Source: an uncultured Acetobacteraceae bacterium (GTDB taxonomy: Bacteria; Pseudomonadota; Alphaproteobacteria; Acetobacterales; Acetobacteraceae). From it: a DNA stretch of 35,780 nucleotides. Location: contig CALMAB010000646.1 of the NCBI GenBank assembly GCA_937858325.1, positions 1-35,780 on the forward strand, given 5' to 3'. Every line of letters starts with the position of its first letter. The stretch's first letter is position 1. Shown one piece after another: positions 8,585-29,136 of the stretch. The notes beneath the pieces are model-generated. The model was not told the DNA's origin. It did no database searches and saw only the letters and a list, made by a program, of their open reading frames with translations. A program made the translations under genes and the position numbers.

Positions 8585-9486
8585 GAGTTCTCAACCAGGC
8601 GAGCGAAGGTCTCTACACGCTGCTTATCCTCCTCGTCCGCGCGCACGTTCGCATGGGGCCGATGTCGCGAGAGGATCTCCTGACCGCCTGCGGCGCGGAC
8701 TTGGATGTGGTGGACGCCGGGCATCTCACCCGAACCCTCAACCGCTGGACCGAGCTCGGCCTCTTCACCATCCACAACAACCTCGTTGTGCTGACCTCAC
8801 CGTATGGCGATGCGCTCGGCAAGACCCCCGACCAAGCGGAGGCGCGCCTGCCGAAGATCGCCCGGACGATCGCTTTGTCGGCGGAGAACAACGCCCGCAT
8901 CTGGGAAGCGGAGGCCGCAAAGAGCGCAGATCTCTGCCGCGCTCTCTCGTGGCTTTTGGCCCAGGATGTCTACGCCATCGACACCAGCGCGCCCAAGGCG
9001 ATCGCCGGCCTTGAAATCGATCAGTTAGCTGACGCCTCACGCTGCATTTTCCAAAATGAGACCCGCTGGAATGGCCTGCGCGCCTGGATGCCCTATCTTG
9101 GCTTCGCGCGCGAAGGCGCCCAGATGGCCATAGATCCGACCGTAGCGGTGCGCGACGCCTTGTCCGAGGTGTTCGCCGCGACCTCAAACCTCACCGCGCG
9201 CCAGTTTGTCGATGCCCTGGCGTGCGTACTGCCGGTGCTCGACCGCGGCGCCTATTGGACACAAGTGGAAACTTTCCTGAACCCTGCCCGCTGGCGCAAG
9301 CCGGCGGACGGACAGGTCTCCACGGCACTGTCGCGAGCTCTGCAGCGCCTCGAGTTCGAAGGCCAGATCGCTCTCGAACGCGGCGCCGACGCCAAGGAGG
9401 GCATGATGCTCACCGGCGCCGGCGGACGCATATGGCGAGAAGTAACCGATGTGCGCCGGTGCGAGCAAAAGGGCGCCAAGCGGTGA
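8581..9486 (+). CDS. dpdG: DpdG-like protein
   Basis: GTG start at 8581 (gtgagagttctcaac), 301 aa; operon position between the dpdF-like and dpdH-like genes; 4-nt overlaps at both ends. Confidence 0.7.
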   Translation: MRVLNQASEGLYTLLILLVRAHVRMGPMSREDLLTACGADLDVVDAGHLTRTLNRWTELGLFTIHNNLVVLTSPYGDALGKTPDQAEARLPKIARTIALSAENNARIWEAEAAKSADLCRALSWLLAQDVYAIDTSAPKAIAGLEIDQLADASRCIFQNETRWNGLRAWMPYLGFAREGAQMAIDPTVAVRDALSEVFAATSNLTARQFVDALACVLPVLDRGAYWTQVETFLNPARWRKPADGQVSTALSRALQRLEFEGQIALERGADAKEGMMLTGAGGRIWREVTDVRRCEQKGAKR

Positions 9487-12400
9487 AATTGGAACGCTAC
9501 TGGCCAGGGGCGGCCGAGGTTGACGCCTGCATCAAGAACGAAGCGGAGACGGCCGACGTCGCGGTCTTGCTCGCTGTGCACCAGCCCTCGCCGTTGGTCG
9601 CCCGCAGCGCCGGCACGCTGCATGAGACGCCGGCCAGCGAATCGGATCTTCTCGCAGCCTTCCTCACGGACCATGTGCCAGGCGGAGCGCTGATGCTGCC
9701 GATCACCGGCCCCTCCGGGGTCGGCAAATCGCACCTGATTCGCTGGCTCGACGCCCAACTTCGCCGTTCTCCCAAGCGCAACAAGCTGCACATCATCAGG
9801 ATCCCCAAGAGCGCCAGCCTACGCACCGTCGTGCAGTTGATCTTGGCACCACTGGCCGATGATCCACGCTACGCCCAGGCGCGCGAGAACCTCACCACGG
9901 CGGTGGCGGCAATCAGTCTGAAGACCGCCGTGGTAACCTTCCGGGCCGAGTTGGAAAACGTCTTAAGCCTCAAGGGCGCGGAGTTGGCGGAGGAACTCCG
10001 CGAAACTCCTGAACAACGCGAGCTTAAGCCGCTGATCGGGCATACGCGCATGCTACCGCGCCTCTTCACCGACGCGGCGCTGGATCAGCATTTCTTAGAC
10101 CACGTGCTGTCGCGCATCGTATCGCGGGCCGTCACGGGTCGCCACGGCGACACCCCGGACCCGGACGATGCGAGTGTGCCCCAATTCGTTCTCGGCGATC
10201 TGCGCATCCCGGACGAGGTAAATGTCAACCAGGCGGCCCAAGCCGTGCAACAGTATTACTTGCGCAATGTCGCTGTTGAGGACGATCGCCTGCAGCCAGC
10301 GATCGATCTCCTCAACAGCGTCGTCGATGCAGCCATCGCCAAAGTCTTCCGGCTCGAGGAGAACACAGGCGGGCCGACGCTCCAGGACATCATTCTTGCC
10401 GTCCGCGAAAATCTGCTACAGGACGGCAAGGAACTGGTGCTCCTTATCGAGGACTTCGCCGCCCTGGCCGGCATACAAGAGGTCCTGCTTAACGTCTGCA
10501 TCCAGGAAGGCACGTACGAAGGTCGCCAGGTACGCGCAACCATGCGCACAGCGATAGCTATCACCGATCGCTATCTGGCCTACCGCGACACGATCCTGAC
10601 ACGCGCCCAGCGCGAGTGGGTGGTTGGCGGCCTGCCGCAGAGCGACGAACAATTAAAGCAGGGGGTGGTCGATTTGGTCGGCTCCTACGTGAACGCGGCG
10701 CGTTGGGGCGAAACGGAACTGCGCCGGCGTTTCCGACCAATCGAATCCGAAGAGCCGCTGACCGATTGGTTGCCGGCCTGGCGCGATGAGGATCTCGATG
10801 ACGACGCCGATACGGCGCTGCGCGCGTTTGGGACCGACACCCGCGGTCACCCCCTATTTCCTTTCAATAGACGCGCCATCGAGTATCTTGTGGGCCGTCA
10901 TCTGCGCGAAGGGGGTCGCCTTATCTTCAACCCACGGCGCGTAATCAATGAGATTCTGCGCAGTATCTTGTTCCTGCGGCCCACCTACGAAACACGGGCT
11001 TTTCCCCAGGCCGACTTTCAGCAGGCGCGGCCAAACACCTTCGTCGCCAACTGGGTGCGCCAGACGCATCGGCCTGAGGCGGTGCGCGGACGCTTAGGGG
11101 TCCTGCTCACGGTCTGGGGCGGAGCACCGGCTGACGAGGTCGGCATAGGCCATGTTCCGCCGGCGATTTTTCAGGAATTTGGACTTCCAACGCCGACCGA
11201 GTTGGCCAACATCGTCTACGTTCCCGAGCCTGCAGAGCCCGGCACCCCGGCCACGCCGGAGATCCGGCCGTTAATGCCGGCGCCGGCGAACGATCCCACC
11301 CTTGAGACGTGGCGCACGAGACTGGATGTTTGGGCCGCGGGAGAACAGCTTGGACAGGCCGAAGCACGCGACTTGCGCAACGCGCTTGCCGGCATGGTTC
11401 GCGATGCGATCAGCCGGCCTTCTCTGCGCGTCCGCGAGTTCGACGTGAAGGCGACGAGCATCTTCATCCCGAACGCCCGTAACAATCCGCAGTCCAATCG
11501 CATCCGAGTCTGCGACGACCCTGCGGATCTGGACGGCACGATTCGGGCTGGGCTGCTGGGGGCGATCCGCTACTTCTACCTAAAGGGCAAACGCTGGACC
11601 TATCCGGAAGCGGACGACGACTACGTCGCGAGCGCCGCAATCATCGACCGGCTCATCGCCCAGTTCACGCCGGTCCTAGTGGAGGAGGCGACGTCGCAAG
11701 CGAGCGCGCTGGCCAAGGGACTCATCACCCAAGCGCGCCTTGCGGGGTTCGGGCCGCCGCTGCGCGGCAGCGAGCCGCGCCCGCTGCTGGAGGCGCTGTT
11801 CAAGGTCTCGGAACCAGCGAACCCCCGGGGGGAGGAGGCTTGGGACCGCGTCCGCGCGGCGGCTTTAGGGCTGGCCGGGTCCAAGGTCGCCCGAGACCTG
11901 CTTCAGACCGAGTTCCTGATCCGCACCGCCAGCTTCCAGGGTACGGGCGCCAAGCCCTACGCCCTCGACATCGCGCGCATTCTGGACGCGGTGAGCGGTG
12001 CTGGCGCCGACCTCCCATTCGAGGGCCTTCCTGATGAATTGAAAACTTTCCTGCGCTCGATCTCAGACCAACGGCTTTGGTCGCAACTGCAGCCGGTCAT
12101 CGCCAAGCTGCGCACATTCCAAGCGGAGGTTGGTGAGTTCCTGGATGAAAGTTTCAACAAGACGCAGTTCGTGGCCGACCTCCAGGAGATCATTCCCTTG
12201 CTAGCGGCGACCTCAACCGCGCCTTCGGGCCTTCGCCTTCAAGACTACGCCCCGCGGGTCACCGGATTTCAGGTGAGTCCCGTGGTGGATCTGGTGAAAT
12301 CTGCCGAAGTGATCGTCGCCGAAGCTGACAAGGCACAGATGCCACGGTTGCTGAACGCGCTCGGCAGGTTGGACCTCGGTCTGATCGCGCAGACGCTGGC

Positions 12401-12566
12401 CTTCTTGGCGGACACCAAGACCCTGCTGGCCGCCGCCGAAATCAACGTGGCGCGGGCGGAAGCCAATAGCAGCCAGGTGGATCCGGCGGTGATGGTGGGC
12501 GAGATCGCCAGCCTTTTGCGCCGGGTCGCTGCCTCAGCCCCTGCCACCCTGGAGCCTGCACAATGA
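9483..12566 (+). CDS. dpdH: DpdH-like large P-loop ATPase
   Basis: GTG start at 9483 (VKLERYWPGAAEVDACIKNEAETADVAVLLAVHQPSPL); Walker A ITGPSGVGKSHLIRW; candidate Walker B LVLLIEDFAAL; about 1027 aa. Confidence 0.75.
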   Translation: MKLERYWPGAAEVDACIKNEAETADVAVLLAVHQPSPLVARSAGTLHETPASESDLLAAFLTDHVPGGALMLPITGPSGVGKSHLIRWLDAQLRRSPKRNKLHIIRIPKSASLRTVVQLILAPLADDPRYAQARENLTTAVAAISLKTAVVTFRAELENVLSLKGAELAEELRETPEQRELKPLIGHTRMLPRLFTDAALDQHFLDHVLSRIVSRAVTGRHGDTPDPDDASVPQFVLGDLRIPDEVNVNQAAQAVQQYYLRNVAVEDDRLQPAIDLLNSVVDAAIAKVFRLEENTGGPTLQDIILAVRENLLQDGKELVLLIEDFAALAGIQEVLLNVCIQEGTYEGRQVRATMRTAIAITDRYLAYRDTILTRAQREWVVGGLPQSDEQLKQGVVDLVGSYVNAARWGETELRRRFRPIESEEPLTDWLPAWRDEDLDDDADTALRAFGTDTRGHPLFPFNRRAIEYLVGRHLREGGRLIFNPRRVINEILRSILFLRPTYETRAFPQADFQQARPNTFVANWVRQTHRPEAVRGRLGVLLTVWGGAPADEVGIGHVPPAIFQEFGLPTPTELANIVYVPEPAEPGTPATPEIRPLMPAPANDPTLETWRTRLDVWAAGEQLGQAEARDLRNALAGMVRDAISRPSLRVREFDVKATSIFIPNARNNPQSNRIRVCDDPADLDGTIRAGLLGAIRYFYLKGKRWTYPEADDDYVASAAIIDRLIAQFTPVLVEEATSQASALAKGLITQARLAGFGPPLRGSEPRPLLEALFKVSEPANPRGEEAWDRVRAAALGLAGSKVARDLLQTEFLIRTASFQGTGAKPYALDIARILDAVSGAGADLPFEGLPDELKTFLRSISDQRLWSQLQPVIAKLRTFQAEVGEFLDESFNKTQFVADLQEIIPLLAATSTAPSGLRLQDYAPRVTGFQVSPVVDLVKSAEVIVAEADKAQMPRLLNALGRLDLGLIAQTLAFLADTKTLLAAAEINVARAEANSSQVDPAVMVGEIASLLRRVAASAPATLEPAQ

Positions 12567-13291
12567 CCGCGTCGTTGCCGCAGCGCGCGGCCGAGCTCAA
12601 AGGGCGCTTGTCGCGACTGTATGACCTCTCGGCGAAGGTGCAGGAGGCGTCCGATCTCGAACGCTTGCGCCAAGATTTGAGCCGCCAGGTCGAAAAATTC
12701 GAGCCTCAGGTGCAGAAGCAAGCCCTGCTACAGGCGAACGCTGTCGCTGTCGCCTCGCCGGCCAGGGTGGTGAAGATGGCGCGCCGGGCGGCGGGCCTGC
12801 ATGAGAAGTTTCAGGTGGAGCCCACTGCAGCCACGCTGAAGAAAGGGAAAACCTGGCAAGCATTGCTCGACGAACTCGACGAGGCTGGCAGTGAGTTCTG
12901 CGAGGTCGTCTTGACAGCTTGGCGCCGCGCCCGCCGCGACTTCTTCGCCGGCGATACGCCCGCGACCTTGCGCGGGCGTTTGGCACGCACGGCTGAGAAC
13001 GATCGCGCGCTCGATCAGTACCGGACGTTGCACCAGGCGCTCGACACCGCGTTCTCGGCCGCCCCTGCGGATCAGGCAGCAATCGATCAGATCAAGCGAC
13101 TGGCCAAGCAACTCGAGATGACCGCCCAGGCCTTCGACTTCAACGTCCCTGAAGCGGTGAAGAGGTTCCTCGAATCGGTGCAGTCGATGGGAGGCGCTTC
13201 GCTCGACCTGCTGACGCCCGAAGTGATCGACTGGCTGAAAGCGAACCACAGCTTTGACGCCTATCGCATCATCGCCAAGAGCCGCACATGA
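12563..13291 (+). CDS. dpdI: DpdI-like protein
   Basis: 242-aa helical protein between dpdH-like and dpdJ-like genes, 4-nt overlaps both sides; assigned mainly by synteny. Confidence 0.65.
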   Translation: MTASLPQRAAELKGRLSRLYDLSAKVQEASDLERLRQDLSRQVEKFEPQVQKQALLQANAVAVASPARVVKMARRAAGLHEKFQVEPTAATLKKGKTWQALLDELDEAGSEFCEVVLTAWRRARRDFFAGDTPATLRGRLARTAENDRALDQYRTLHQALDTAFSAAPADQAAIDQIKRLAKQLEMTAQAFDFNVPEAVKRFLESVQSMGGASLDLLTPEVIDWLKANHSFDAYRIIAKSRT

Positions 13292-16200
13292 CCGCCGACG
13301 AGGCGCTGCTCGTCGCGGCCCTAGATGAGATTGAACAACGCGAGGCCCGGCTGCTGACCTGGGGCCTTGTCGATGGATTTTTGACCGCCGGCGAGGCGGC
13401 GGAGATCATCGATGCGCTGCTCGACAACCCCCGCTTCGCCGTGGCCGACTTTGCGACGCCCTTGAATTTCCTCAGCGCCGCAGACGTGCTGGCCGCGCTC
13501 AAGGCGCGTGCGCTCGTCTTGGACGTCTCCGACGGGAGCGAGCCCCGATACCGCTCGCGCATGGCCGAGGCCGTGCGCCTCCTGTTTCGCCTGCGCCAGC
13601 TTTTCCCCAAGCACCAGGGCCCGACAGGCTGGCAGAGCGCGCCGACACTGGTCGCCGATTTCCGCTTTCTCTGGCGCCGCCGCCGATATCCAGACCGTTG
13701 CTTGGCCCCCGCCGACGTCCTACCGCCCCTCAATGATGTCCTCGACGATGCAACCGCACGTGAGGCTCTGGCGGAACTCCTTCGCAGCCACGGTCCGGCT
13801 TTTCGCCTGGCGCGGTTCCAGATGGAGGCCAGCCAACGAATCCTCGGCGGCCTCGGAGGGGAACGCTCACAAGCGACATTGGTGAGCGCCGGAACCAGCA
13901 GCGGCAAGACGCTCGCCTTCTACCTTCCGGCGCTCACGCGCATCGCCGCACACGTGCGGCGCGACGCGCCCACGAGCCGCTGGGTGAAGGCGCTGGCGCT
14001 CTATCCCCGTAACGAGTTGCTGAAGGACCAACTTGTCGAGGTCTATGGCGAGGCACGGCGCTTGGACGGCTGGCTGCGCGCGCACGGTCGCCGCAAGCTG
14101 CTGATCGCGGCCTTGTTCAGCTTCACGCCCAATAGCGCCGCCGTGGCGTCCGATAGCAAGGGGTGGCGGGCGCATGCCCGTGGCCTCGTCTGCGAGTACA
14201 TCCGCTGTCCCACCGAGGCCTGCGGAGGCGACATGCTTTGGGCGGATGACGACCGGTGGGCAAGCCGCGAACGCCTGGTCTGCCTGCAGTGCCGACGCAC
14301 GATCGAGGGCGACGAGGTGATCCTCACCCGCGAGCGCCTGCAGCGGGAAAGCCCAGACATCCTGTTCACGACCACTGAGATGCTGAACCAGCGGATGGCC
14401 GACAGCCGTCTGCGGCATCTCTTTGGCTTGGGCCGGCGCTGTGAGCGCCCTGTCGAGTTGATGCTGCTCGACGAGGTCCATACCTTTGTCGGATCAACGG
14501 GTGCCCAAGTCGCCTTCCTGCTGCGGCGCTGGCGGCGGCTTTTGCGTACGCCGGTCAGCTTTGTGGGCCTCTCGGCCACGCTCCGTGATGGGGCACGCTT
14601 TTTTGCGCGCCTGACAGCCTTGAGCGAGCAGGTCTCGGTGGAGGTATCGCCGGCAAGCCGCGACTTGATCAGCGAAGGCGCGGAGTACCTCCTCGCCTTG
14701 CGGGGCGATCCCGTGTCGCGGGGTGCATTGCTGTCGACCACCATTCAGACCGCGATGCTGCTGGCACGGATGATGGATCCGCCGAGTTCGGGCAAGAGCG
14801 GCGGGCTCGTGGGTGAGCGCCAGTTCCTATTCACCGACAACATCGACGTTATCAACCGCGTCTACTTCGCGATGCTGGACGCCGAAGGCCGCAACAGCCG
14901 GGGTAATGTCGACCTCCAGCGTCATCGCAACGGCGGTCTGGCAGCGCTTCGCGTTCCCATGCCCAATCGTCTGCGCAAGTTGCACGGGCAAGACTGGGAA
15001 GCCGCCGTCGAGGTCGGACACAGCCTGCAGTCGGGCGATCGCAAGACCGTGGGCCGCGTCATGGCCCTCGATCCCGGGGTTGGCGCCGGCCTGGATATCA
15101 TCGTGGCGACCGCCTCCTTGGAGGTGGGCTTCAATGATCCAAAGGTGGGCGCGGTTATCCAGCACAAGGCGCCGCGCGATGTCGCCCAGTTCCTGCAGCG
15201 CAAGGGTCGTGCCGGGCGCTCGCGCCAGATGCGGCCGTGGACGGTGGTGGTGCTCTCCGACTACGGCCGCGACCGAGTAGCCTACCAAGCTTATGACCTC
15301 TTATTCGATCCAGAACTGCCGGTCCGGGCGCTCCCGATCGGTAACCGCTATGTGCAGCGCATCCAAGCCGTCTATGCGACGATCGACTATTTGGGTCTGC
15401 AACTGGCGGGGGCCGGCGAGGGTAGCGTCTGGACCAATCTCGCTGGGCCGGCGGGCACGCCGAACCAGCGGGCGCGCCAAACGGTCTTGGCCCGCACGAT
15501 CGAAGAGATCCTTGCTACCCCGTCCGAACGCGACGCCTATGCCGCTTTTCTCGGCCGCGCTCTAAAGCTCTCAGATTCGGAAGTGGCATCCCTGCTCTGG
15601 GAAGACCCACGGCCATTGCTGCTTGAGGTGTTGCCGACCGCACAGCGGCGTCTCGAGACCCTCTGGCGCGATGTCCGCGGCGGGGTGGAGCGCCACGTGG
15701 GTAATTCGCCACTGCCAGAGTTCGTGCCGCCAAACCTGTTCAGCGACCTGAATCTACCGGAAGTGGTGATCACCTTGCCGCCCATGCGGGGCGTGATTCC
15801 TGACCCGGAGATGATGCCCATCGCACAGGCGATGCGCGAATATGCACCGGGCCGGGTCTCGCGACGCTACGGCCTCAGTCATGCCCACGAACGCCATTGG
15901 CTCTGCACCAACCTTGATGTGGCCCCGATCCAGGCCGTGCCGCTTGAGGGCCTTGTCGATACCCAGGCGCTGGGCAACTGGCGCATCGATGGCGATCGGG
16001 GTCCCATTGCGATCCCGATTTTTCGCCCTCGGGCGCTGCAAGTCCAACAGACCCCGTCCAACATCCTGGACACCTCCAACGCGCACCTGCGCTGGCGAAC
16101 GCAGATCATTGGCCGAGCGCCGGGTCTTGTGCTGGAAGCGCCGCAAGGCTCCCCATGGACGTCGCTGATGGTGGACGTCCGGTTTCATACCCATCAGGGT

Positions 16201-17850
16201 TTAAGTCCGGTCGAGGTCCGGCGCATGGCGCTGGGCAGCGAGGCCAGCCTGCGCTTTAGGGACGGCAGTTCGGCCACTAAACGGTTCGATTTCGAGAAGA
16301 ACGGCGCAGCTACGGCCTTGGGCTTTTCGCTCTCGGTGGACGCTTTTTGCTTGCGCCTGCGGTTTCCAGAGTCGTTGTGGGCCAATCTGGGAGATGAGAC
16401 CGGGGCACGCTATCGGGCACTCCGCACCGTGAGATTCCACGATTTGGCGCGCATGGGGCCGCAACTCGCCATGGTCGACAATCCGTTCGCCCGGGCTTGG
16501 CTGGCGCACCTGTTGCTCGCCGCGCTCAGCAACGAAGCGATCGCCAAGGCCATTCCCCTGGAAACGGCGGCGGAGAGTCTCGCTCAAGATCGGGGCGACC
16601 TGACGCTCGAGCAGACTCTCGACATCTTGTTCCAGTCCGCAGTCGTCGACGACGCCGACGGCCAAACCAATCGGCAGGACAAGCTGCGCCAGGATCTTAC
16701 GCACTTGATCGCCGACCCGGCGGTCAAAGCCGGCCTTTTTGAATTGGCGGCCATTCTGTGGACTCCGATCAGCGCGGACTGGGAGCCTTGGCTGCGCGAC
16801 CGTTTCACGGCCACGGTGGGCGCGGCCGCACATCAGGCCTTGCTGAACCTCTGCCCCGAGCTCGACGCCGACAGCCTGGTGGTTGACCTTTATGCCGGGG
16901 TTCGGGAAGCGGACGATCAACTGGCCGGCGAGGCGAGCGCCGAGGTTTGGATCAGCGAGCTTGCGCCCGGCGGCAACGGCCATATCGAGGAGGCGCTCCG
17001 CCAATACGCCGAGGATCCGCGGCGCTATTTCAGTCTTATGACCGCCGCTCTGCGCGACAACGATTTTGCGCTGAGCGATTACCAACTGCAGCGGTTTCTG
17101 CAAACCGTGGTGGAGACGGCCCCCAGCAGCGAGCTTGCGGAGGCAACCGCCGAGCTTCGCCGGTCCGAAGGGGTCGAGGCTACCCATCGCAGCTTGATGG
17201 CCTTGCGCCATACCTTGGCGGCCGAGGGCTTCGTCACTTTCCACAGCTTCATGGTGGCGTTGGCAAACCGGGTGCTGCGACCGGGCTCAACGTTCGAGAG
17301 TGATGCCTTCTTCTTGAGCGCGATCCGCGAATGGTCAGCGCAGGAGGCGCGGCTCGGCGTCGAACTGGATGCCCGCGTCATCGCTTATCGCCTATCGCGC
17401 CGGGCCGACATCGACGCTGCCCTGAACTTCGCCGGGATCGACACGCCGACGATAAATCCGGACCAGTGGCGCATGGGAGTGGTCTATGGCCTGCTCTGGC
17501 CCCGTGGTGCGCAAGTGCGCCAATCGGGGCTGCAACTCTACTCGCCGTTTGTGGACTTACCGCCCCCGGAACCGCTCCTGCTGCGCCCCTACCTCGAGGC
17601 GGGCCACCGCCCAATCGACCTGGGCGACGCGGAATGGCGCGCTCAGTGTCTCGCGCGGCTCGCCGAGACGGGGGCGGTGACGCTCGTTTGCCCAGTGAAG
17701 GAGGTCGAGCGTGTCGCGGGGGCCTTCAATTTCCTAGCCACCAACCCGGTCCAGACCGGTTACCTGTCAGTGTTCGCACGCGTGCACGCGATGCGACGCG
17801 TTCAAGATCAACACCTCGTCGAGGTTGACATTCCGGAGGCATTGCAATGA
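13288..17850 (+). CDS. dpdJ: DpdJ-like giant DEAD-box helicase (1520 aa)
   Basis: SAGTSSGKTLAFYLPAL, LMLLDEVHTFVG, FVGLSATL, IVATASLEVGFNDPKVGAVIQHKAPRDVAQFLQRKGRAGRS; internal Cys-rich segment. Confidence 0.8.
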   Translation: MTADEALLVAALDEIEQREARLLTWGLVDGFLTAGEAAEIIDALLDNPRFAVADFATPLNFLSAADVLAALKARALVLDVSDGSEPRYRSRMAEAVRLLFRLRQLFPKHQGPTGWQSAPTLVADFRFLWRRRRYPDRCLAPADVLPPLNDVLDDATAREALAELLRSHGPAFRLARFQMEASQRILGGLGGERSQATLVSAGTSSGKTLAFYLPALTRIAAHVRRDAPTSRWVKALALYPRNELLKDQLVEVYGEARRLDGWLRAHGRRKLLIAALFSFTPNSAAVASDSKGWRAHARGLVCEYIRCPTEACGGDMLWADDDRWASRERLVCLQCRRTIEGDEVILTRERLQRESPDILFTTTEMLNQRMADSRLRHLFGLGRRCERPVELMLLDEVHTFVGSTGAQVAFLLRRWRRLLRTPVSFVGLSATLRDGARFFARLTALSEQVSVEVSPASRDLISEGAEYLLALRGDPVSRGALLSTTIQTAMLLARMMDPPSSGKSGGLVGERQFLFTDNIDVINRVYFAMLDAEGRNSRGNVDLQRHRNGGLAALRVPMPNRLRKLHGQDWEAAVEVGHSLQSGDRKTVGRVMALDPGVGAGLDIIVATASLEVGFNDPKVGAVIQHKAPRDVAQFLQRKGRAGRSRQMRPWTVVVLSDYGRDRVAYQAYDLLFDPELPVRALPIGNRYVQRIQAVYATIDYLGLQLAGAGEGSVWTNLAGPAGTPNQRARQTVLARTIEEILATPSERDAYAAFLGRALKLSDSEVASLLWEDPRPLLLEVLPTAQRRLETLWRDVRGGVERHVGNSPLPEFVPPNLFSDLNLPEVVITLPPMRGVIPDPEMMPIAQAMREYAPGRVSRRYGLSHAHERHWLCTNLDVAPIQAVPLEGLVDTQALGNWRIDGDRGPIAIPIFRPRALQVQQTPSNILDTSNAHLRWRTQIIGRAPGLVLEAPQGSPWTSLMVDVRFHTHQGLSPVEVRRMALGSEASLRFRDGSSATKRFDFEKNGAATALGFSLSVDAFCLRLRFPESLWANLGDETGARYRALRTVRFHDLARMGPQLAMVDNPFARAWLAHLLLAALSNEAIAKAIPLETAAESLAQDRGDLTLEQTLDILFQSAVVDDADGQTNRQDKLRQDLTHLIADPAVKAGLFELAAILWTPISADWEPWLRDRFTATVGAAAHQALLNLCPELDADSLVVDLYAGVREADDQLAGEASAEVWISELAPGGNGHIEEALRQYAEDPRRYFSLMTAALRDNDFALSDYQLQRFLQTVVETAPSSELAEATAELRRSEGVEATHRSLMALRHTLAAEGFVTFHSFMVALANRVLRPGSTFESDAFFLSAIREWSAQEARLGVELDARVIAYRLSRRADIDAALNFAGIDTPTINPDQWRMGVVYGLLWPRGAQVRQSGLQLYSPFVDLPPPEPLLLRPYLEAGHRPIDLGDAEWRAQCLARLAETGAVTLVCPVKEVERVAGAFNFLATNPVQTGYLSVFARVHAMRRVQDQHLVEVDIPEALQ

Positions 17851-18392
17851 GCGAAGGCTTCGCCAGCCGCCGGATCTTTAAGAGCGCCGTTACCAGCCAA
17901 AACCTGATTCGCGAACTGCTGCAATTAATGCTGCTCAGCGAATTGGTTGCGCCGGGTGGCGAGCGCGTCTGGCTCGTCAGCCCGTGGATCAGCAATGTTG
18001 CCATCCTCGACAACCGCACCGCGGGCTTCAATGCCGTAAATCCCGAATGGGGTGCGCGCGAGATCCGTCTTGTAGAGATCGCCGTCGAGTTAATGATACG
18101 GGGCTGCCCACTCGGGATCGCGACCAGCCTCGATGAGCACAACGGGCCTTTTCTGTACGCGCTCACGGAGGCCGCGGCGGAGGCCGGGCTTAGCGAGAAG
18201 CTCACGGTGGTGCGGCGCAAGAACCTGCACACGAAGGGTATCTTGCTGCGCCGCGGCCTACTCACCGGGTCGATGAACCTCACCCATCGCGGGCTCGAGT
18301 TGAACGATGAGACAGTAACCTACGATACGACCACCCAAAGCCTGGCTCAGGCGCGTATCAGCTTTGAGTCCTATCTTGAGGCGTCGCCGTGA
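17847..18392 (+). CDS. dpdK: DpdK-like phospholipase D-like protein
   Basis: Single PLD-type motif NLHTKGILLRRGLLTGSMNLTHRGLELNDE; 181 aa; operon position. Confidence 0.75.
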   Translation: MSEGFASRRIFKSAVTSQNLIRELLQLMLLSELVAPGGERVWLVSPWISNVAILDNRTAGFNAVNPEWGAREIRLVEIAVELMIRGCPLGIATSLDEHNGPFLYALTEAAAEAGLSEKLTVVRRKNLHTKGILLRRGLLTGSMNLTHRGLELNDETVTYDTTTQSLAQARISFESYLEASP

Positions 18393-20635
18393 TCGCCGAT
18401 CTGCCGCCTCACGAGACCGCCTGGCTGGCTACATTCTTTGCTGCCCCTAATGAGCTGACCTGGGCGATGCTCGAAGCCAATACGGCACCCGCGCTCACTG
18501 CCCAGGTGAGGCCATGGCTCGACGAACTTGTCCGCAAGCCCGAGACGGCAACCGTGGTCCTTCCCCTGGTGCGGGCGGGCGGGCCCGTCGGATGGTATGC
18601 GGCGAGCGCCGACCCGAGGAGCAGCGACGTCTTGACCTCGGAACTACGCGCCTGGTTCGGACCCTCGTATTTGGCCCGCTTCGAGCCCGCGCTGGCGGGA
18701 ACCCGCGACGCGCGAGTCCGGGCGCTGCGCTCGCGCTTTGCAGGCGGCGTCCTTCTCTTCAGCGGCGCGACCGCCGCCGGCAACGCCAAGATCGCCGAGC
18801 GCCTCATCGCATTCGCCAACCTGCGAAGCCTACGACCGCCAACGTGGCGTGAGATCCCCCGGCCTGTGGGCCGCATCCGCGCCGACTTCGACCGCGCCTT
18901 GCTGGCGCAAGATGAACATGGCGCCACCGCGATGCTCGCTGAGTTGCGCAGCACCGGACGGCTAAATGAAGAGAACCTGCGTTACCTCGAGGTGCGCCTA
19001 CAAGCGGGCCTCGGCTATTGGCCGCAGCTTGCCCGCAACCCCTGGCTGATCACGACCCTTTCGGACCTGGGGCCACCGCCGCAGACACTGGCCGACCTTG
19101 TTGAAGCGCTTTATCGCACCTTCGTCGAACCGCTTGAGGCCAGCGGCGGCTCCGATCAACTGCTACAAGCCTTCGAAACGGCGATCGCGCGACCTTACCC
19201 ACGCCTTTTCGCCTCGCGGCGGGGTGTGCGCACCACGCGGGTGGTCAAAGCGTTCCTGCTGTTCGAGCGCCTGCGCCCTCAGCCCACCGCTGCGATCATC
19301 GCCGAACTGCGGGACCTGTTGCCGGAGTCTGAACATCGCTCGCCGCTGTTTGCGGCGCTGTCGGCTGATATCGCATCCCCGCCGGGGGCGCCGGAGGACG
19401 TCGGGGCCGAAGCCGACACGGCCTTCGACGACGGCGAAGTCGATCGGGCCTTCGAGCTTTATATGGCCACGCCCATAGGGCGGAAGACCTTGAACCGGCT
19501 CCTGCTGTGTGGCGATCAGATCGGCGTTGACGGCCGGCAGCGCCTTCTAGCGCGGCTCGACAGCGTGGATCCTGGTCTGCTTGCCGAGTTGTCCGCTCCG
19601 CAGCAGCGGCGGTTCACCGAGTTACGCGCAGCCACGACTGGCGCTCCGGAGTCGGCGCCGCAAAATCCCTGGATCGCTTGGGCAGAGCAGTTGCGGCAGG
19701 GGCGCGATCTGATGGCAGCCGAGCGCGCGGTCGGCCAAGCGCCCGTCACCTGGGACATTGCCGAATTCCACGCCAGCGAAGCGTTCAGTTCGCAATTCGC
19801 CGAACTGATCGGCAATCTCAACGGCGAGGCGGCCGTCGTCGCTCGCCAGTCGGTCGCCGCCCTGATTGCGGCTTTCTTCCCACCGGCCCTCCCCCCGGCG
19901 GCGGCGCTGCGGCCAGTCGCGGCCGTGTTATTCCTGCTTTTGGCGATGGACGACCCGCTCTCGCACGCCGACCTCGAACTCTTGGCGCAACTCGTCGGCC
20001 ATCGCCTGGAACTGGGGCTCACCGCTGGCGACTACGCGGAAATGGTGCGCGATTTGCGCGACGTGCGGGAGCGCGTCGCGTCCTACGCCAACCTCCCGTG
20101 GAGCCTTGACCTCTGCGAGGCCTTGGCCCTCGCTCCGGCAGCGGGCGCCGCCGCCCAGGAGACACGGCTCGGCTTCTTCATGGCGGTGCTGGGCGAAGCC
20201 CAAAGAATGAGCCACCGCTTGCAGCCGCCTGACCTGTTCACACTCGACCTTCTCGCCAAGGACTTCCATGTCGAGGACGGGGCGCTTGGATGGTTGCAGC
20301 AGGTCCGCACCAAGGCTGAGGCAAGCGACGGGCCAAACCTCGCCGGCAAGCGGATCGGCATCTACACTTTGGCGGAGGCGGCGGGCGCCCGCGCCAAGGC
20401 GGCGCTGGAAGCAATGTATCCTGCGTGTCGCGTCGAGGTAAACTCAGACCTCGTCTGCAGCGCGCAACTCGCGAGCCTCGCCGACGGAGCCGATCTGTTC
20501 GTCTTCGCCTGGAAGAGCAGCAGCCACCAAGCCTTCTACTGCGTGAAGGATGCCATGGCCCCGCGCGAGCCGGTTTGGGCATCGGGCAAAGGCACCGCGA
20601 GCATTCTGCGAGCGGTGGCCGATAGCTTCAACTAG
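18389..20635 (+). CDS. dpdD: DpdD-like protein
   Basis: 748-aa last gene of the operon (GTG start at 18389, gtgatcgccgat); assigned by size and synteny with dpd clusters. Confidence 0.65.
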   Translation: MIADLPPHETAWLATFFAAPNELTWAMLEANTAPALTAQVRPWLDELVRKPETATVVLPLVRAGGPVGWYAASADPRSSDVLTSELRAWFGPSYLARFEPALAGTRDARVRALRSRFAGGVLLFSGATAAGNAKIAERLIAFANLRSLRPPTWREIPRPVGRIRADFDRALLAQDEHGATAMLAELRSTGRLNEENLRYLEVRLQAGLGYWPQLARNPWLITTLSDLGPPPQTLADLVEALYRTFVEPLEASGGSDQLLQAFETAIARPYPRLFASRRGVRTTRVVKAFLLFERLRPQPTAAIIAELRDLLPESEHRSPLFAALSADIASPPGAPEDVGAEADTAFDDGEVDRAFELYMATPIGRKTLNRLLLCGDQIGVDGRQRLLARLDSVDPGLLAELSAPQQRRFTELRAATTGAPESAPQNPWIAWAEQLRQGRDLMAAERAVGQAPVTWDIAEFHASEAFSSQFAELIGNLNGEAAVVARQSVAALIAAFFPPALPPAAALRPVAAVLFLLLAMDDPLSHADLELLAQLVGHRLELGLTAGDYAEMVRDLRDVRERVASYANLPWSLDLCEALALAPAAGAAAQETRLGFFMAVLGEAQRMSHRLQPPDLFTLDLLAKDFHVEDGALGWLQQVRTKAEASDGPNLAGKRIGIYTLAEAAGARAKAALEAMYPACRVEVNSDLVCSAQLASLADGADLFVFAWKSSSHQAFYCVKDAMAPREPVWASGKGTASILRAVADSFN

Positions 20636-20944: not shown

Positions 20945-21652
20945 TTAGTTGGGCCGGCTTTTGAGGACGTGCGTAGCCCACCCTTGCGCTCGAAGTTTGC
21001 AAGCTGGGCAGGTCCCGCTGACCCAGCCCCAGGAGTGTCGGTGTGCGTCGTCGCCGTTGTAACAGGTCTCGGTCTCGTCCAGGACCAGGTCCACAAGGGC
21101 GTCGCCGCCTAGATCGTGAGCCAACGCCCAGGTTTCTGCCTTGTCGCGCCACATCAGAGGCGTGTGGACCACGAAGCGCGTCTCCATGCCCAGGTTGAGC
21201 GCGACCTGCATTGCCTTCACCGTGTCGTCCCGGCAATCCGGGTAGCCGGAGTAGTCCGTCTCGCACACGCCGGCGACGAGGTGCTTGAAGCCGCGCCGGT
21301 AAGCGATGGTCGCGGCGAAGGTGAGGAACAGCAAGTTACGGCCCGGCACGAAGGTGCTGGGCAAGCCGTTCGCCTGCATCGTGATCTCCGCGTCGCGGGT
21401 CAGCGCCGTCTCGCTCACCTGGCCGAGCACGCCCAGATCGACCATGTGATCGTCGCCCAGCTTGCTTGCCCACGCGGGGAACGCCTGGCGCAACGCGTCC
21501 AGCACCTGCGGGCGCACTTCCAGTTCCACCCGGTGGCGCTGGCGGTAGTCGAAGCCTACTGTCTCCACGCGGTCATACCGGTCCAGCGCCCATGCAAGGC
21601 AGGTCGTGCTGTCCTGCCCGCCGGAGAACAGCACGAGGGCGCCGTCACTCAC
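20945..21652 (-). CDS. queC: 7-cyano-7-deazaguanine (preQ0) synthase QueC
   Basis: PP-loop [65 protein letters not shown]-terminal [33 protein letters not shown] start at 21652 overlapping the queD stop. Confidence 0.92.
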
Positions 21653-22026
21653 GTGCTGCTGCCCGGCCCGAAATAGGCACAGCTCTCGCCGTTGCTGTCG
21701 CGATGCACGACCACTCGGGCGAGGCCGGGGCAGGCGGGGCACACGGCGCGCCAGATCCAAGCGGCCAGGTTCTCCATGGTGGCCGGGCCAAGTCCAGTCA
21801 CCTCGTCGAGGAAACGGTGGTCGAGCCCGTCGCGCGCCCCTTCCAGTGCCCGCTCAAGCAGACCGAGATCCAGCACCATGCCCGTGGCCGGGTCAGGGGT
21901 GCCGCGCACGACGACCTCGGCGCGATAGGAGTGGCCGTGGATGCGCCGGCTTGGCTCGGCGTCCATCGCCCGCCCGGGCAAAGTGTGGGCCGCCTCGAAG
22001 CGGAACTGCTTGGCGAGCTCAAACAC
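21649..22026 (-). CDS. queD: 6-carboxytetrahydropterin synthase QueD
   Basis: [18 protein letters not shown]...[27 protein letters not shown]...DHRFLDEV. Confidence 0.9.
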
Positions 22027-22029
22027 GGG

Positions 22030-22665
22030 TTAGGGTATCCCGATTAGCTTGTGGGTCTGCAGGCTCAGCCGCCAACCAGGGTGTGCCAGGCAGTAGGCCA
22101 CCGCGGCTTGCGTGTTGGCAGCGCGGTCAGGCCCGTCCATGGGCTGCAACCAGCGATGGGCGAAGTGCAGGTCGTGGGGCAGCGCGTCCGGTTCCAGCCC
22201 AGGCTGCGGGTAGATCAGCTTCAGCTCCGAGCCCGCGCGCAGCCGCCACGGCGCGCCGGCCTTGGGGCTGACCGTCACCCAATCCAGCCCCGGCGGCGGG
22301 TCGAGCGTGCCGTTGGTCTCCACCGCCGCTTCGAAGCCGCGCGCGTGCACGGCCTCGACCAGGGCCGCGTCGAGCTGGAGCAGCGGCTCGCCACCGGTGA
22401 ACACGACGTAGCGTTCCCTGTCCCCGCCGGACCAGGCCGCCTCGACGGCCTGCGCCAATGCTTGCGCGTCCGCGAAGCGGCCGCCGCCGGGTCCGTCAAG
22501 GCCCATGAAGTCGGTGTCGCAGAAGCGGCAGGCCGCTTCCGCCCGGTCTTCCTCGCGGCCGGACCAAAGGTTGCAGCCGGCGAAGCGGCAGAACACGGAT
22601 GCCCGCCCGGCCCGGGCACCTTCGCCTTGTAATGTCGCAAACAGCTCCTTGACGGCGTAAGTCAC
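22030..22665 (-). CDS. queE: 7-carboxy-7-deazaguanine synthase QueE (radical SAM)
   Basis: KELFATLQGEGARAGRASVFCRFAGCNLWSGREEDRAEAACRFCDTDFMGLDG (CX14CX2C-type cluster motif); YVVFTGGEPLLQLD; likely GTG start at 22665. Confidence 0.9.
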   Translation of the reverse strand: MTYAVKELFATLQGEGARAGRASVFCRFAGCNLWSGREEDRAEAACRFCDTDFMGLDGPGGGRFADAQALAQAVEAAWSGGDRERYVVFTGGEPLLQLDAALVEAVHARGFEAAVETNGTLDPPPGLDWVTVSPKAGAPWRLRAGSELKLIYPQPGLEPDALPHDLHFAHRWLQPMDGPDRAANTQAAVAYCLAHPGWRLSLQTHKLIGIP

Positions 22666-22681
22666 CGGCCGCCCCTCCCCC

Positions 22682-23797
22682 TTAATCACCCGCCGTGCGA
22701 AACAACGGCGACTCAGCCAAATCCGCCGTCCGCCTCGCCCGGATCGCATGTCGAACCAGCCCGATTAAGTGCTGCGACAGCACCGCGATGTCGCGCGGGT
22801 TGTTCTGGATTGCCCGCCAGTGCCGTACGTCGCCGCCGCCGAAGTCCCACTCGCCCTCGGTCCAAGCGGCCTGGTCGGCCAGGCAGGCCAAGCCGTGCCG
22901 GAAGCCATCGCAGGTGTCGGCCCCTTCCACCTGGTAGAGCAGATCCATGACGTGGCCCATCGCCACGATGCCGGCGCCATGCACCAGCCGCGACGTCTTG
23001 GGAGTCTTCCGGTCCCACGCCACGTCCGGGAAAGTAGCGCGCACGGCCCAGAAATATTCGGCGAGCACGCGGTAGCACGGCTCGGCCCCGCCCGCGCGCC
23101 GCGCCAGGTCGCGCATTGCGCCGCCGCCCGCAAGCGAGTTCATCACCACCCGTTGCAGCGCCGTGTCGCTGACCACGCCTCCCGGATTGGTGTGCTGGTG
23201 CACCTTGCCCTCCAGCGGCGAGCCCTTCTCCCAGTTCAGCCGCGCGGCGAGATCGGCCGCCAGCGCACGGTCCGATAGGCGCCGCGGCAGGCCGCCCTCC
23301 ACCGTGGGCAGCAACTCGTAGATCAGCGACTTGGGCAGCGGTCGGGTATTGTTGATGAGCACGAACTGCCGGCGCAACTCGGCCTCGTCGGCGCAGACCA
23401 GGGCGGAGACGAACACCTCGAAGCGCTTGCCCTCGATCTGCGAGAGCGCGGTCAGGCGCTGCTGCCCGTCCACCACAAAGCCCGGGGGACCGTCGGACAA
23501 GTCCACCGTCACCCGGCAGGTGCCGGCCGGCCCGTCCTCGACCGCCATGCCCCGGGTGAAGGCGACAACGACCGGATTGGGCAGCACGGCGTGCTCCGTT
23601 TCCAGGTAGTCGCGGATCTCGCGGATGTGGGCGGCGATCTGCGGCCGCTGAAAGCCGCTCAGCCGCCCCTCCCCGTCGCGGCCCGCGCGCTCGATGACGG
23701 CGAAGCGCATCAAGTCCTCGGCGCTAGCCACGAAGGAGAGGACCTGGTGCCGCGGGCTCTGACTGGCGCGGATGGCGGAAAAGGTCAGCTTGCTCAT
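22682..23797 (-). CDS. dpdB: DpdB-like DGQHR-domain protein, paralog 1
   Basis: FVVDGQQRLTALSQIEGKRFEVFVSALVC...QFVLINNTRPLPKSLIYELLP; located between dpdA and queE. Confidence 0.8.
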   Translation of the reverse strand: MSKLTFSAIRASQSPRHQVLSFVASAEDLMRFAVIERAGRDGEGRLSGFQRPQIAAHIREIRDYLETEHAVLPNPVVVAFTRGMAVEDGPAGTCRVTVDLSDGPPGFVVDGQQRLTALSQIEGKRFEVFVSALVCADEAELRRQFVLINNTRPLPKSLIYELLPTVEGGLPRRLSDRALAADLAARLNWEKGSPLEGKVHQHTNPGGVVSDTALQRVVMNSLAGGGAMRDLARRAGGAEPCYRVLAEYFWAVRATFPDVAWDRKTPKTSRLVHGAGIVAMGHVMDLLYQVEGADTCDGFRHGLACLADQAAWTEGEWDFGGGDVRHWRAIQNNPRDIAVLSQHLIGLVRHAIRARRTADLAESPLFRTAGD

Positions 23798-25097
23798 CGG
23801 GGCGGGTGCCCTCCTCTGGGCCGGGCAGGTCGTTCACGAGGGTCTTGAAGACGGCAAGGTTGTGAATGCCCCGCCTCTTGTTGCGGTTGCTGCCGCGGAA
23901 CACCAGGGCTTCGATGCCCAACTCGCGGCACACCCGGCAAGCGCAACGTTCCCAGGGCCGCTCGGTCAGAGTGCGCCGGTAGCGGTTGCGCAGCGCCGGG
24001 TCGCCGTCCGCGGGGTGGGTCGCCCGGCGCAGCAGGCCCGGCTCGTCGTAGGCCATCACGGCGTCGAGCGCCTCGTCCAGCCCTGCCTCCCCGCGGCCGT
24101 AGGCGCGCAGCGACTCCAGCGCCCGGCGTTCCAGGCGCTGCAGGTCCTCCTGCCGCACCTTCCCCTCCTTGGCCAGGCGCTGCAGCTTGGGGTTCTCCGT
24201 CGCTTGCGGCACCCGCAGCGCGGTGTAGTAGTCGAGCCCGGTGCCGGGGCGGCGCAGGTAGTAGTTGCAGCGCGCATCCTTGAACGCTCGGCGCAGCGGC
24301 GAGGTCGTGTCGAAGCTCGTGATGCCGAACGGGACAAACTCCTGGATGTCCTCGGCCTTGGCGAAGCCGAGCACGTGCATCGCCGCATCGTGCGGGATCG
24401 CGTCACGGACTGCGCGCAGGCACGCTTTCACCTGCGGCGTGCGCAGCGGGACCGTGCCGCCCACGGCGAGATAGCGATAGCCCATCCGGCACAGGTCGCG
24501 CGCGGCTTTTGCCATGCTGACCGGCGACCAGCCTTGCACAACGCCGAGCGGGGTGAAGCGACCCTCCATCGGGCGGCTCGCGCGCAGGAAGGTTTCGGCG
24601 TTGGCCAGCGTGAGGTCGAAGCGCCGCCGCGCCTCGTCCCGTGCCATCGCGGACGGGAAGCGGGCCGGGTCGTCATCCTCGTGGAACTCGAAGATGATGT
24701 GATCCACCGAGCAGCCATGGGTGAACTCGCCGTCCTCGTAGAAAGCGAGCATGTCTTCGGGCGTATAGGGCGGCGTGCTCTCCTTCACGTAGGCGAAGGC
24801 GCCGCAGTCGCCGAACACCGGCATGTGTCGGAAGCGCGGCCCGTCCAGGCGCAAGAAGGCGCGGGCGCCCGCACGGCGAAAGGCCATGGCTTGGGCTTCG
24901 CTATACTTGCCGCCGCCCAGCCGACCCTTGCCCACCGCGGCGCGCGAGACCAGCATGCCGTCGTAGGGCGGGGTGTCCATGTGCTCGTGCGGGTATTCAT
25001 CATCCCAGTAAGCTTGTCTCCCGGGGGCATTGCGGTCCCCCTCGAAATCGAAGCCAGGGTCCACGTAGTCCATCGTATCGGCGAAGATGAACTTCAT
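23724..25097 (-). CDS. dpdA: DpdA, TGT-like DNA-guanine transglycosylase
   Basis: MKFIFADTMDYVDPGFDFEGDRNAPGRQAYWDDEYPHE; FGDCGAFAYVKE; GVVQGWSPVSMAKAARDLCRMGYRYLAVGG; TGT-type zinc motif CACRVC...GIHNLAVF. ATG at 25097 overlaps the upstream stop by 4 nt. Confidence 0.9.
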   Translation of the reverse strand: MKFIFADTMDYVDPGFDFEGDRNAPGRQAYWDDEYPHEHMDTPPYDGMLVSRAAVGKGRLGGGKYSEAQAMAFRRAGARAFLRLDGPRFRHMPVFGDCGAFAYVKESTPPYTPEDMLAFYEDGEFTHGCSVDHIIFEFHEDDDPARFPSAMARDEARRRFDLTLANAETFLRASRPMEGRFTPLGVVQGWSPVSMAKAARDLCRMGYRYLAVGGTVPLRTPQVKACLRAVRDAIPHDAAMHVLGFAKAEDIQEFVPFGITSFDTTSPLRRAFKDARCNYYLRRPGTGLDYYTALRVPQATENPKLQRLAKEGKVRQEDLQRLERRALESLRAYGRGEAGLDEALDAVMAYDEPGLLRRATHPADGDPALRNRYRRTLTERPWERCACRVCRELGIEALVFRGSNRNKRRGIHNLAVFKTLVNDLPGPEEGTRPDEQADLFRHPRQSEPAAPGPLLRG

Positions 25098-26260
25098 CGG
25101 CCGGCCGGAGGACGCCGCGACAGGTCGCGGTCGATCTGGGCTAGGTGCTCGCCCAGACGGGTGACGTGCTGCGGAGTGCTCTGCACCTCGTTCCAGCGCC
25201 AGCCCAGCCCCTCCCACACGCCCTCGGTCCAGCGGCAGTGCGGGGCAATGCGGGCGAGTGAGGCGTGCACCTCAGCTTCCGGGTGCGGCGAGCTGTCCGC
25301 CCGGAGCATGATAGGGTCCATAAGCATACCCATGGCCCGAATGCCGGCTGAGTGCATTAGTCGGCTTTCCGAAGGTGGGCGGCCCCAGGCTTCCGGAAAG
25401 GCATTGCGCACTGCTGCCCAGTAAAGCACCAGCGTGTGCAGCATGGCGGCGGTGTCCCCGGCGCGGCTTTGCCCACCGCTCGGCGGGCAGTAAGGCCGCA
25501 ACGCCCCCGTATGGCCACGTAGGTTGCGGCGGATCGCCTCAGACAGCGCAGTATCAACGACGATGCCGCGTGCGTCCGGACCGTCCGATTCTCGGCGGAT
25601 CAAACCGTGGAACGGTGAGGCCGGGTCCCGGCTCAGGGCGTTGCAGAGTTCGCTCGGCAGTCGCCGCGCTGCCAGATCGCGGGGCAACTCAGTCCCGACC
25701 TCAGGCAGCAACTCGTCGATGAGTCGCGTCGGCAGGGGCTTGGCCTTGTTGACCAGAATGAACTGCTCGCGCTGGACGGCGAGGTCGGGGGCGACGAAGC
25801 CCACCACCGGAACGGGGAGCAACTTCGCCCCTTTTGCGCGTGCGAGCGCGAGTGAGCGTTGCTGCCCGTCCACGATCCAGGCCGCACGTTCACCCTCAGC
25901 GCGCACGGGCAATACAAGGGTGCCTGCGTCTGCCGTCGCGGCCATCCCGTCCGGGCGCGGACCACGGCTGGAACGGAATGCCACGTCCGAGGAGAGCGCG
26001 AGAACGATGGCGTTCGGAAACAATGCGGGGCCGCGGCTGAGGAATTCGGCGATTGACTTGACGTGCGCGCGCACCTCCCTGCGCTGGAAGCCGCGCAGGT
26101 GCCCGCCATCCCGGCGGATGCGGCTGATGTCGGCGACGCGCGCGACGTCGGGGCCGAAGAGGAAGAACGAGAACACGTCCACGCCGCCCTGCGCCGTTTT
26201 GAGGGCGCGCACCACAAGGCGGTCGGCCGCGGCTTGCAGCGCGGGAACATCGGCCTTCAT
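25094..26260 (-). CDS. DpdB-like DGQHR-domain protein, paralog 2
   Basis: AWIVDGQQRSLALARAKGAKLLPVPVVGFVAPDLAVQREQFILVNKAKPLPTRLIDELLPEV; shares HLRGFQRREVRAHVKSIAEFL, VVDTALSEA and SRLMHSAGIRAMGMLMD blocks with the protein at 22682..23797. ATG at 26260 gives a 4-nt overlap with the upstream gene. Confidence 0.8.
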   Translation of the reverse strand: MKADVPALQAAADRLVVRALKTAQGGVDVFSFFLFGPDVARVADISRIRRDGGHLRGFQRREVRAHVKSIAEFLSRGPALFPNAIVLALSSDVAFRSSRGPRPDGMAATADAGTLVLPVRAEGERAAWIVDGQQRSLALARAKGAKLLPVPVVGFVAPDLAVQREQFILVNKAKPLPTRLIDELLPEVGTELPRDLAARRLPSELCNALSRDPASPFHGLIRRESDGPDARGIVVDTALSEAIRRNLRGHTGALRPYCPPSGGQSRAGDTAAMLHTLVLYWAAVRNAFPEAWGRPPSESRLMHSAGIRAMGMLMDPIMLRADSSPHPEAEVHASLARIAPHCRWTEGVWEGLGWRWNEVQSTPQHVTRLGEHLAQIDRDLSRRPPAGR

Positions 26261-27207
26261 GCGGGTGCCCCGGCGCAGCGGCATTCGGCCGCGGCTTGGA
26301 AGAGGCGGGCGAAGCGCCGCTGTTCGCAGGCGACACCAAGGCCGTCACGCAGCAAGCGCAGCATCTGTCCCGATCGTCCGCCCGCAGCCCCCCAGTTTTG
26401 AACCACTAGGGCGATGATCTCCGCGTCGGTCGCCTTGCCCCGATCGACGCTCACCCGGAGTTTAAGGCCGGTCATGGCACGCTCGACGGCAGCCCAGTGC
26501 GCCTTGGACGTCGCGGTGGGTCCGCTACGAGGCAGGACGGTTCGAGCAAAATGGCGCATCGCGCGCTGTGCGAAATCCGATCGCGTGCCGGGCAAGGGGC
26601 TATCCGGGCCGTCGAAGCGGGCGTCGTAGGGCATTATGGTCTCAACGAGGCGAGAGGGCAACCCGGCCGGGGGCGCGGCGCAGAACAGGCGCAAGTGGTC
26701 CCCTATCTGGTCCAAGAAACGCTCGAGGTCGCCAGCGAGCATCTTCAAGTAGGCGCTCGGCAGGGCGGCAAGGACCAACTGGCTGTCGCAGCGCCGCACG
26801 ATGTCGTCCAGGCCGGCGTGGAATGGTGAGTTCGCCGGGCCTGCCCGCCACCAGTCGGCCACCGACGCGGCTTCGTCCACCAGGCTCAGCACGTCGTCGC
26901 TGGCGCCTGGTGCGACCGTGAGGCTGTAGGTCGGGACGGTGGCGTCGGCGTGGACGATTCCGAGGCCAGCGGAGGCGATATATAGGTCCGCGCTCCCCGC
27001 GGCGGCCCGTGCCTCGCCGAAGCCGCGCCCCGCGTAAAGATCGCCCGCGCGAATGCTCGGCGAAGCGCGCCGGAGCCTAGTGAGCCAGCACGAGGCGACC
27101 GCCGAGAGCGATCCTGCCGGGAGAGAAGCAGCCCGCAACTCGGCCGGTGGCACGATTCGCTTTCGGTTGGTGCAGGCTGTCAGGATGATAGGATTAGACG
27201 TGTCCAT
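26257..27207 (-). CDS. dpdC: YaaA/DUF6884-like protein, candidate DpdC (dPreQ0 to dADG conversion)
   Basis: IILTACTNRKR N-terminus; LYIASAGLGIVHADATVPTYSLTV; first gene of the modification operon. Assignment to DpdC is by fold resemblance and synteny. Confidence 0.6.
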   Translation of the reverse strand: MDTSNPIILTACTNRKRIVPPAELRAASLPAGSLSAVASCWLTRLRRASPSIRAGDLYAGRGFGEARAAAGSADLYIASAGLGIVHADATVPTYSLTVAPGASDDVLSLVDEAASVADWWRAGPANSPFHAGLDDIVRRCDSQLVLAALPSAYLKMLAGDLERFLDQIGDHLRLFCAAPPAGLPSRLVETIMPYDARFDGPDSPLPGTRSDFAQRAMRHFARTVLPRSGPTATSKAHWAAVERAMTGLKLRVSVDRGKATDAEIIALVVQNWGAAGGRSGQMLRLLRDGLGVACEQRRFARLFQAAAECRCAGAPA

Positions 27208-27892: not shown

Positions 27893-28149
27893 GCACTTTT
27901 CCTTTTCGCATGCCCGAGGATCTCAAGGCTGCCGTCACCGCCCAGGCCGAGCGGGCGGGTGTCAGCCTGAACCAGTATCTGCTCTCCATCGTCGCGGCCC
28001 ATGCCGGCTCTCAGGCAGAGGCCGAGCGCTACTTCGCTGCCCGTGCGGCACGCTCCAGCCCCGCGCGGGCATTGGAGATCCTGGCCCGCGCCGGCCAGGG
28101 GCAGCCGCCCGAGCCGGGCGACGAGCTGCCGCCGGATCTCGCGCCGTGA
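27889..28149 (+). CDS. antitoxin-like small DNA-binding (RHH/HicB-like) protein
   Basis: FPFRMPEDLKAAVTAQAERAGVSLNQYLLSIVAAHAGS, an Arc/HicB C-terminal RHH-type signature; GTG start overlaps the toxin stop by 4 nt. Confidence 0.7.
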   Translation: MSTFPFRMPEDLKAAVTAQAERAGVSLNQYLLSIVAAHAGSQAEAERYFAARAARSSPARALEILARAGQGQPPEPGDELPPDLAP

Positions 28150-28863: not shown

Positions 28864-29136
28864 GCCTGCCCTCGCTCGCCTTCCACCGACAGTTCATGTC
28901 GGAATTCATTGCGAAAGACCTGCCCTGTCTCCTGCTCGGTTTAATCGAGGTGAGGAACACCCGATACGCGCTGGTCGCGTTGCGCCCGGAAGGGGTATTG
29001 CCCGTGAGCATCACGGCCGGCGGTTTCGGGTCGGCGATTCGCTGCGCAGCGCCAGCAGTTGGGTGGGAGTCCACTTCACCCTCACGAACCTACGCTGGAC
29101 CGGCCGCTTCAGAGCGCGCACAAAGAGCTGTCGTGG

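Follow-up and report, generated by a model that had tools for sequence, protein, structure and literature searches.

An old duplication gave rise to two DpdB lineages, B1 (encoded in the dpdC–dpdA interval) and B2 (encoded after dpdA), which have been retained together across many proteobacteria. Both are encoded in the DNA analysed here, a stretch of 35,780 nucleotides of contig CALMAB010000646.1 (assembly GCA_937858325.1) from an uncultured Acetobacteraceae bacterium, hereafter the window. By its gene content, the window carries a complete Dpd (7-deazaguanine DNA) modification–restriction island of the two-DpdB type. We propose, with a probability of about 0.55, that the modification enzyme DpdA works with DpdB2, and that DpdB1 is a paralogous nucleoside triphosphatase (NTPase) partner of DpdB2. 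To our knowledge, the Dpd biochemistry described so far (Salmonella) comes from a single-DpdB island, and the role of the second DpdB is modestly interesting for that reason: the two-DpdB enzyme is possibly a three-protein machine.

Two diverged DpdB proteins flank DpdA

On the window's minus strand the gene order is dpdC–dpdB1–dpdA–dpdB2–queE–queD–queC; dpdE–K and dpdD are encoded on the plus strand. The genes at the centre of this analysis are:

26257..27207, minus strand, dpdC (PADLOC DpdC, E 6.5e-89)
25094..26260, minus strand, dpdB1, upstream DpdB paralogue, a DGQQR protein of about 388 amino acids (NF041060, 421.9 bits)
23724..25097, minus strand, dpdA, tRNA-guanine transglycosylase (TGT)-like DNA guanine transglycosylase of about 457 amino acids (NF041059 DpdA, 539 bits against a cut-off of 200; DpdA tree)
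22682..23797, minus strand, dpdB2, downstream DpdB paralogue, a DGQQR protein of 371 amino acids (NF041060, 375.5 bits)

The dpdB1 start is taken as the ATG at 26260; an alternative start at 26284 is also possible. An ATGA is common to dpdC and dpdB1 at 26257-26260, and another to dpdB1 and dpdA at 25094-25097, while dpdB2 starts 74 bases inside the 3' end of dpdA. Both dpdB genes therefore overlap dpdA on the same strand, and an earlier, sequence-only reading of this DNA was right to place them in one operon with it. Stop/start overlaps usually reflect coupled translation and similar protein amounts. In a genome-wide search with the PADLOC DpdB model, dpdB1 and dpdB2 were the only DpdB genes in the assembly, which is 67% complete. 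Its family code is shared by genomes with contigs that match Novacetimonas and Rubritepida loci, in keeping with a place in the Acetobacteraceae.

The identity of both proteins is clear. They match the NCBIfam DpdB equivalog NF041060 near full length and above its curated cut-off of 300 bits, as well as PADLOC DpdB (B1 E 3e-125, B2 E 8e-119), Pfam PF14072 DndB (52.2 and 37 bits, gathering cut-off 29.1) and TIGR03187 DGQHR (200.6 and 139.4 bits, cut-off 58.85). All four models thus bear out the earlier assignment of the two flanking open reading frames to the DpdB/DGQHR family. The two proteins are 36% identical over 356 columns (E 5e-50), so their resemblance is not due to chance, and they are as clearly diverged as had been noted.

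The VDGQQR, GFQR, QFxLxN, ELLP and SRLxHxxG blocks pointed out in the earlier reading are present in both proteins and belong to the most conserved columns of the family. When the B1 and B2 clades were compared with six single or orphan DpdBs, 58 of the conserved positions of the latter were retained in both clades, 14 in B1 only and 19 in B2 only. The shared set includes GFQR, VDGQQR, QFxLxN, ELLP and SRLxH, and since all core motifs fall within it, neither protein looks like a dead enzyme by sequence. The differences include the loss from B1 of the TNPxG loop and of a lysine that follows the PLP motif (E. coli K181, still present in B2 as K156), and the replacement in B2 of the glutamate after GFQRP by glutamine. 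At a guess, these residues might affect nucleotide handling. Each clade also has invariant residues of its own.

Two lineages of fixed position

A tree built from 138 DpdB proteins separates the upstream (B1) genes, 65 in number, from the downstream (B2) genes, also 65, and each group has support of 100; a Variovorax orphan DpdB falls with the B2 genes. No swap of position was seen among these 65 + 65 genes. The single DpdB of the E. coli type lies outside both clades. B1 and B2 are thus not interchangeable duplicates; they are two fixed lineages.

Some DpdB genes stand outside the usual arrangement. A contig from a viral collection carries a B-A-B island (L143:2595-7074), of which the upstream DpdB belongs to the B1 clade, whereas its downstream DpdB groups with an orphan from an actinobacterium. 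Four further DpdB genes have no dpdA close by (L135:7995-9140, L136:7980-9086, L137:8001-9098 and L146:3734-5140); they come from Euzebya, Nonomuraea, Variovorax (where type I-E cas genes are adjacent) and the Myxococcus phage Mx4.

Two DpdB genes are the norm in this branch

A survey was made of 93 DpdA-anchored loci, drawn from plasmid records that match DpdA and from a genome scan with a DpdA alignment. The scan contributed its best 80 of 232 loci, a selection that favours DpdA proteins resembling the window's. The layout was C-B-A-B in 83 loci and B-A-B without a found dpdC in two; the others were C-A (three), C-A-B (two), A-B (one), B-A at a contig end (one) and A alone (one). The B-A-B loci are spread over 62 genus-level units within the Alpha-, Beta- and Gammaproteobacteria. 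The plasmid records include nine alphaproteobacterial C-B-A-B islands and two C-A islands without B. In 84 of the 85 loci, the B1 stop and the dpdA start overlap by 1 or 4 bases, which suggests that B1 is made in amounts similar to DpdA.

Small unselected samples were also examined, with 399 genomes from the phylum, 369 from a class and 397 from the order. Six genomes had a strong DpdA or DpdB match and four of these, the window's own included, have two DpdB genes; the remaining two are an E. coli-type genome with a single DpdB and a Novacetimonas with B2 and a decayed B1. Islands other than the window's thus have two DpdB genes in three of five cases. Both the survey and these counts make two copies routine in the window's dpd branch. 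The suggestion that a pair is unusual is refuted by the survey (B-A-B in 83–85 of 93 loci): the pair is real and old, and the window is an ordinary member because the pair is common. In a 2025 preprint (PMC11888242), additional copies of dpdB in dpd islands had already been counted, 801 in all. A literature search by the name dpdB1 found nothing relevant, and an earlier mention of paired dpdB genes in papers on the Salmonella system is possible.

The nearest relatives are two-DpdB islands such as those of Agrobacterium vitis (CP146243), Sinorhizobium americanum and Skermanella rosea, which have the window's order dpdC-dpdB-dpdA-dpdB-queE-queD-queC and in which NCBI annotates both copies as DpdB. 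They do not differ in kind from the window, which adds a member from the Acetobacteraceae with a full dpdD-K arm. The Dpd systems of E. coli, Salmonella Montevideo and Enterobacter (dpdC-dpdA-dpdB with dpdD-K) share dpdA, dpdC and the restriction genes with the window, and their DpdB belongs to the same NCBI equivalog family. In the E. coli/Enterobacter-type island, however, a single DpdB is encoded downstream of dpdA. The earlier statement that the characterised Salmonella cluster has one dpdB agrees with one DpdB place in each of 159 of 159 E. coli genomes and with the single dpdB of an Enterobacter plasmid island, whose DpdA is 41% identical to that of the window; the comparison covered these E. 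coli and Enterobacter islands.

A further relative is DndB of the phosphorothioation systems (PF14072), which has the DGQ[HQ]R domain in common with B1 and B2. DndB systems differ in their modification chemistry, and DndB is described as a repressor. The dnd DGQHR model gives 48 and 33 bits on B1 and B2, far under its cut-off of 450.

About eleven islands encode, no more than 10 kb from dpdA, a third protein of the DGQHR family that is more divergent than the two DpdBs and scores about 50-121 bits against the DpdB profile: L010:16039-17127, L028:15002-16027, L039:13095-14303, L066:14573-15805, L078:14945-16168, L085:7027-8313, L089:3746-4981, L098:6270-7805, L100:16257-17762, L101:14094-15305 and L149:13235-14467. 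An unverified faecal 'bacteriophage' contig (L147, MT835580.1) carries a whole dpdC-B-A-B-queE-queC operon close to the alphaproteobacterial ones, and may be misassigned bacterial DNA.

Predicted folds and a possible link to NTPases

AlphaFold2 models, built from alignments of the window protein and related-locus sequences only, have a mean predicted local distance difference test score (pLDDT) of 91.1 for B2 and 87.6 for B1. The best fold match of the B2 model in the PDB is a ParB N-domain (E 8.3e-4), with a low template modelling score (TM-score 0.28/0.38). A sequence search of the PDB found no homologue for B1 or B2; apolipoprotein and interferon matches were set aside as chance. DpdB has been described as a ParB-like ATPase used for preQ0 insertion (PMC12839542) and DndB as an NTP binder of the ParB superfamily (PMC12704722, PMC10853773), and a DndB-like protein binds both ATP and GTP (PMC12704722). 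The conserved core motifs of B1 and B2, and the ParB-like fold suggested by the B2 match, would be consistent with an NTPase role in preQ0 insertion by DpdA.

A proposed assembly of DpdA, DpdB2 and DpdB1

In the proposed mechanism, DpdA would swap guanine for preQ0 in DNA, aided by a ParB-fold NTPase. DpdB2, whose gene is placed like that of the only DpdB of E. coli/Salmonella islands, would be the direct partner of DpdA, and DpdB1 would pair with DpdB2 in a B1–B2 heteromer as a second NTPase subunit. On this view, the probable form of the enzyme is a DpdA-B2-B1 assembly, whose subunits would be made in roughly equal amounts via coupled translation. DpdC would then convert preQ0 to the amide, and DpdD-K would restrict unmodified DNA. 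A stricter version, in which B1 and B2 are obligate partners in a hetero-oligomeric NTPase and divide its roles (B2 contacts DpdA, B1 acts via B2), would make the two-DpdB islands a mechanistically distinct form of Dpd, widespread in proteobacteria, beside the single-DpdB Salmonella model; it is tentative and has somewhat less than an even chance.

The arrangement of partners comes from divergence correlations and gene losses, which together point to a DpdA-B2 core with B1 as the partner of B2. Pairwise divergence between gene products was compared across 51 islands; the test was exploratory and was picked following an initial inspection of the data. The partial correlations given all other genes (medians of 300 half-samples) are 0.72 for A-B2, 0.43 for B1-B2 and -0.09 for B1-A. 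Gene adjacency alone would give B1-A a higher value than B1-B2, and the opposite is observed. As for losses, B1 is decayed in locus L070 and absent in L065, while dpdA and B2 remain in both. The L070 case is that of Novacetimonas maltaceti, where a decayed dpdB1 remnant (L070:9747-10103, on the same contig as L148) lies beside dpdC, dpdA and dpdB2. The reading of this remnant as a retained C-terminal domain was rejected, since the residues conserved in the family are missing from it and it has the look of gene decay.

Several points weigh against the proposed assembly. The divergence correlations suggest partner contact, but shared transfer or similar rate patterns can also produce them. The islands of L065 and L070 persist without B1, and three islands of Acetobacter and Methylorubrum (L019, L020, L092) have dpdC-dpdA with no DpdB nearby, though these three may not be functional. 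The branching order of the single DpdB relative to B1 and B2 is left equal by approximately unbiased (AU) tests (p 0.45 and 0.44), and for this reason the view of B2 as the true orthologue of E. coli DpdB is a matter of position only. Furthermore, a fold search with the B1 model against the PDB gave nothing significant: the leading matches include SspE (the best, E 0.14) and PadC, both of the same superfamily.

The two DpdBs might instead form no joint complex, each pairing separately with DpdA to give two modification complexes that differ in target sequence or in the conditions of use. Both proteins retain every core motif and so may be active NTPases, which would fit this arrangement, as would their similar rates of change (mean identity 55.6% for B1 and 55.0% for B2). 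It is nevertheless unlikely, since B1 and DpdA divergence is uncorrelated once B2 is accounted for while B1 and B2 remain correlated, one dpdA is always common to both, and islands with B1 alone were found among the surveyed loci only as contig-end and frameshift cases. Nor did we find specific support for the earlier suggestions of distinct sequence specificity or of a separation of preQ0 delivery from DNA recognition. The heteromer proposed in the same place fares better: it is compatible with the data and has indirect support from the position lock, the stop/start coupling and the divergence correlations, with direct contact between the proteins being a matter of inference.

Alternatively, B1 could be a regulator outside the modification enzyme, as proposed for DndB in the dnd operon. 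That B1 has been lost in L070 and L065 speaks for such a role; its place within the operon and the nearly invariant overlap with dpdA suggest DpdA-like amounts, and for the single DpdB, a relative of B1, a use in base insertion has been described (PMC12839542), which leaves a regulator rather improbable. Least probable is a second DpdB that arose by recent duplication and is redundant, without a role of its own. One DpdB does suffice in E. coli/Salmonella-type islands, but both lineages are of old origin, each has been conserved in its own right across many genera and is marked by clade-specific invariant residues, and the DpdB tree strongly disfavours this explanation.

Other genes of the island

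The whole Dpd-system gene set (dpdA, dpdB, dpdC and the restriction genes dpdD-K) is present in the window, with dpdI under its curated cut-off. The remaining genes are:

22030..22749, minus strand, queE, preQ0 synthesis, true start probably near 22665 (TIGR04508, 338.7 bits)
21649..22026, minus strand, queD, preQ0 synthesis (Pfam PTPS, E 4.8e-29)
20945..21760, minus strand, queC, preQ0 synthesis, true start internal to the listed reading frame (TIGR00364, 201.9 bits)
2805..6008, plus strand, dpdE (NF041062, 941 bits)
6005..8584, plus strand, dpdF (NF041063, 901 bits)
8581..9486, plus strand, dpdG (NF041064, 298 bits)
9222..12566, plus strand, dpdH as the listed reading frame, matched from residue 93 on (NF041065, 771 bits)
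12563..13291, plus strand, dpdI (NF041066, 130 bits, below the curated cut-off of 150)
13288..17850, plus strand, dpdJ (NF041067, 1798 bits)
17847..18392, plus strand, dpdK (NF041068, 195 bits)
18389..20635, plus strand, dpdD (NF041061, 519 bits)

Beyond dpdC, the region 28029-31424 (minus strand) has reading frames of 285, 429 and 333 amino acids without a Pfam match, the latter two also without an NCBIfam or PADLOC match. Upstream of dpdE, a DNA/RNA non-specific endonuclease (PF01223) extends over two overlapping frames at 772-2057 (plus strand), possibly through a frameshift.
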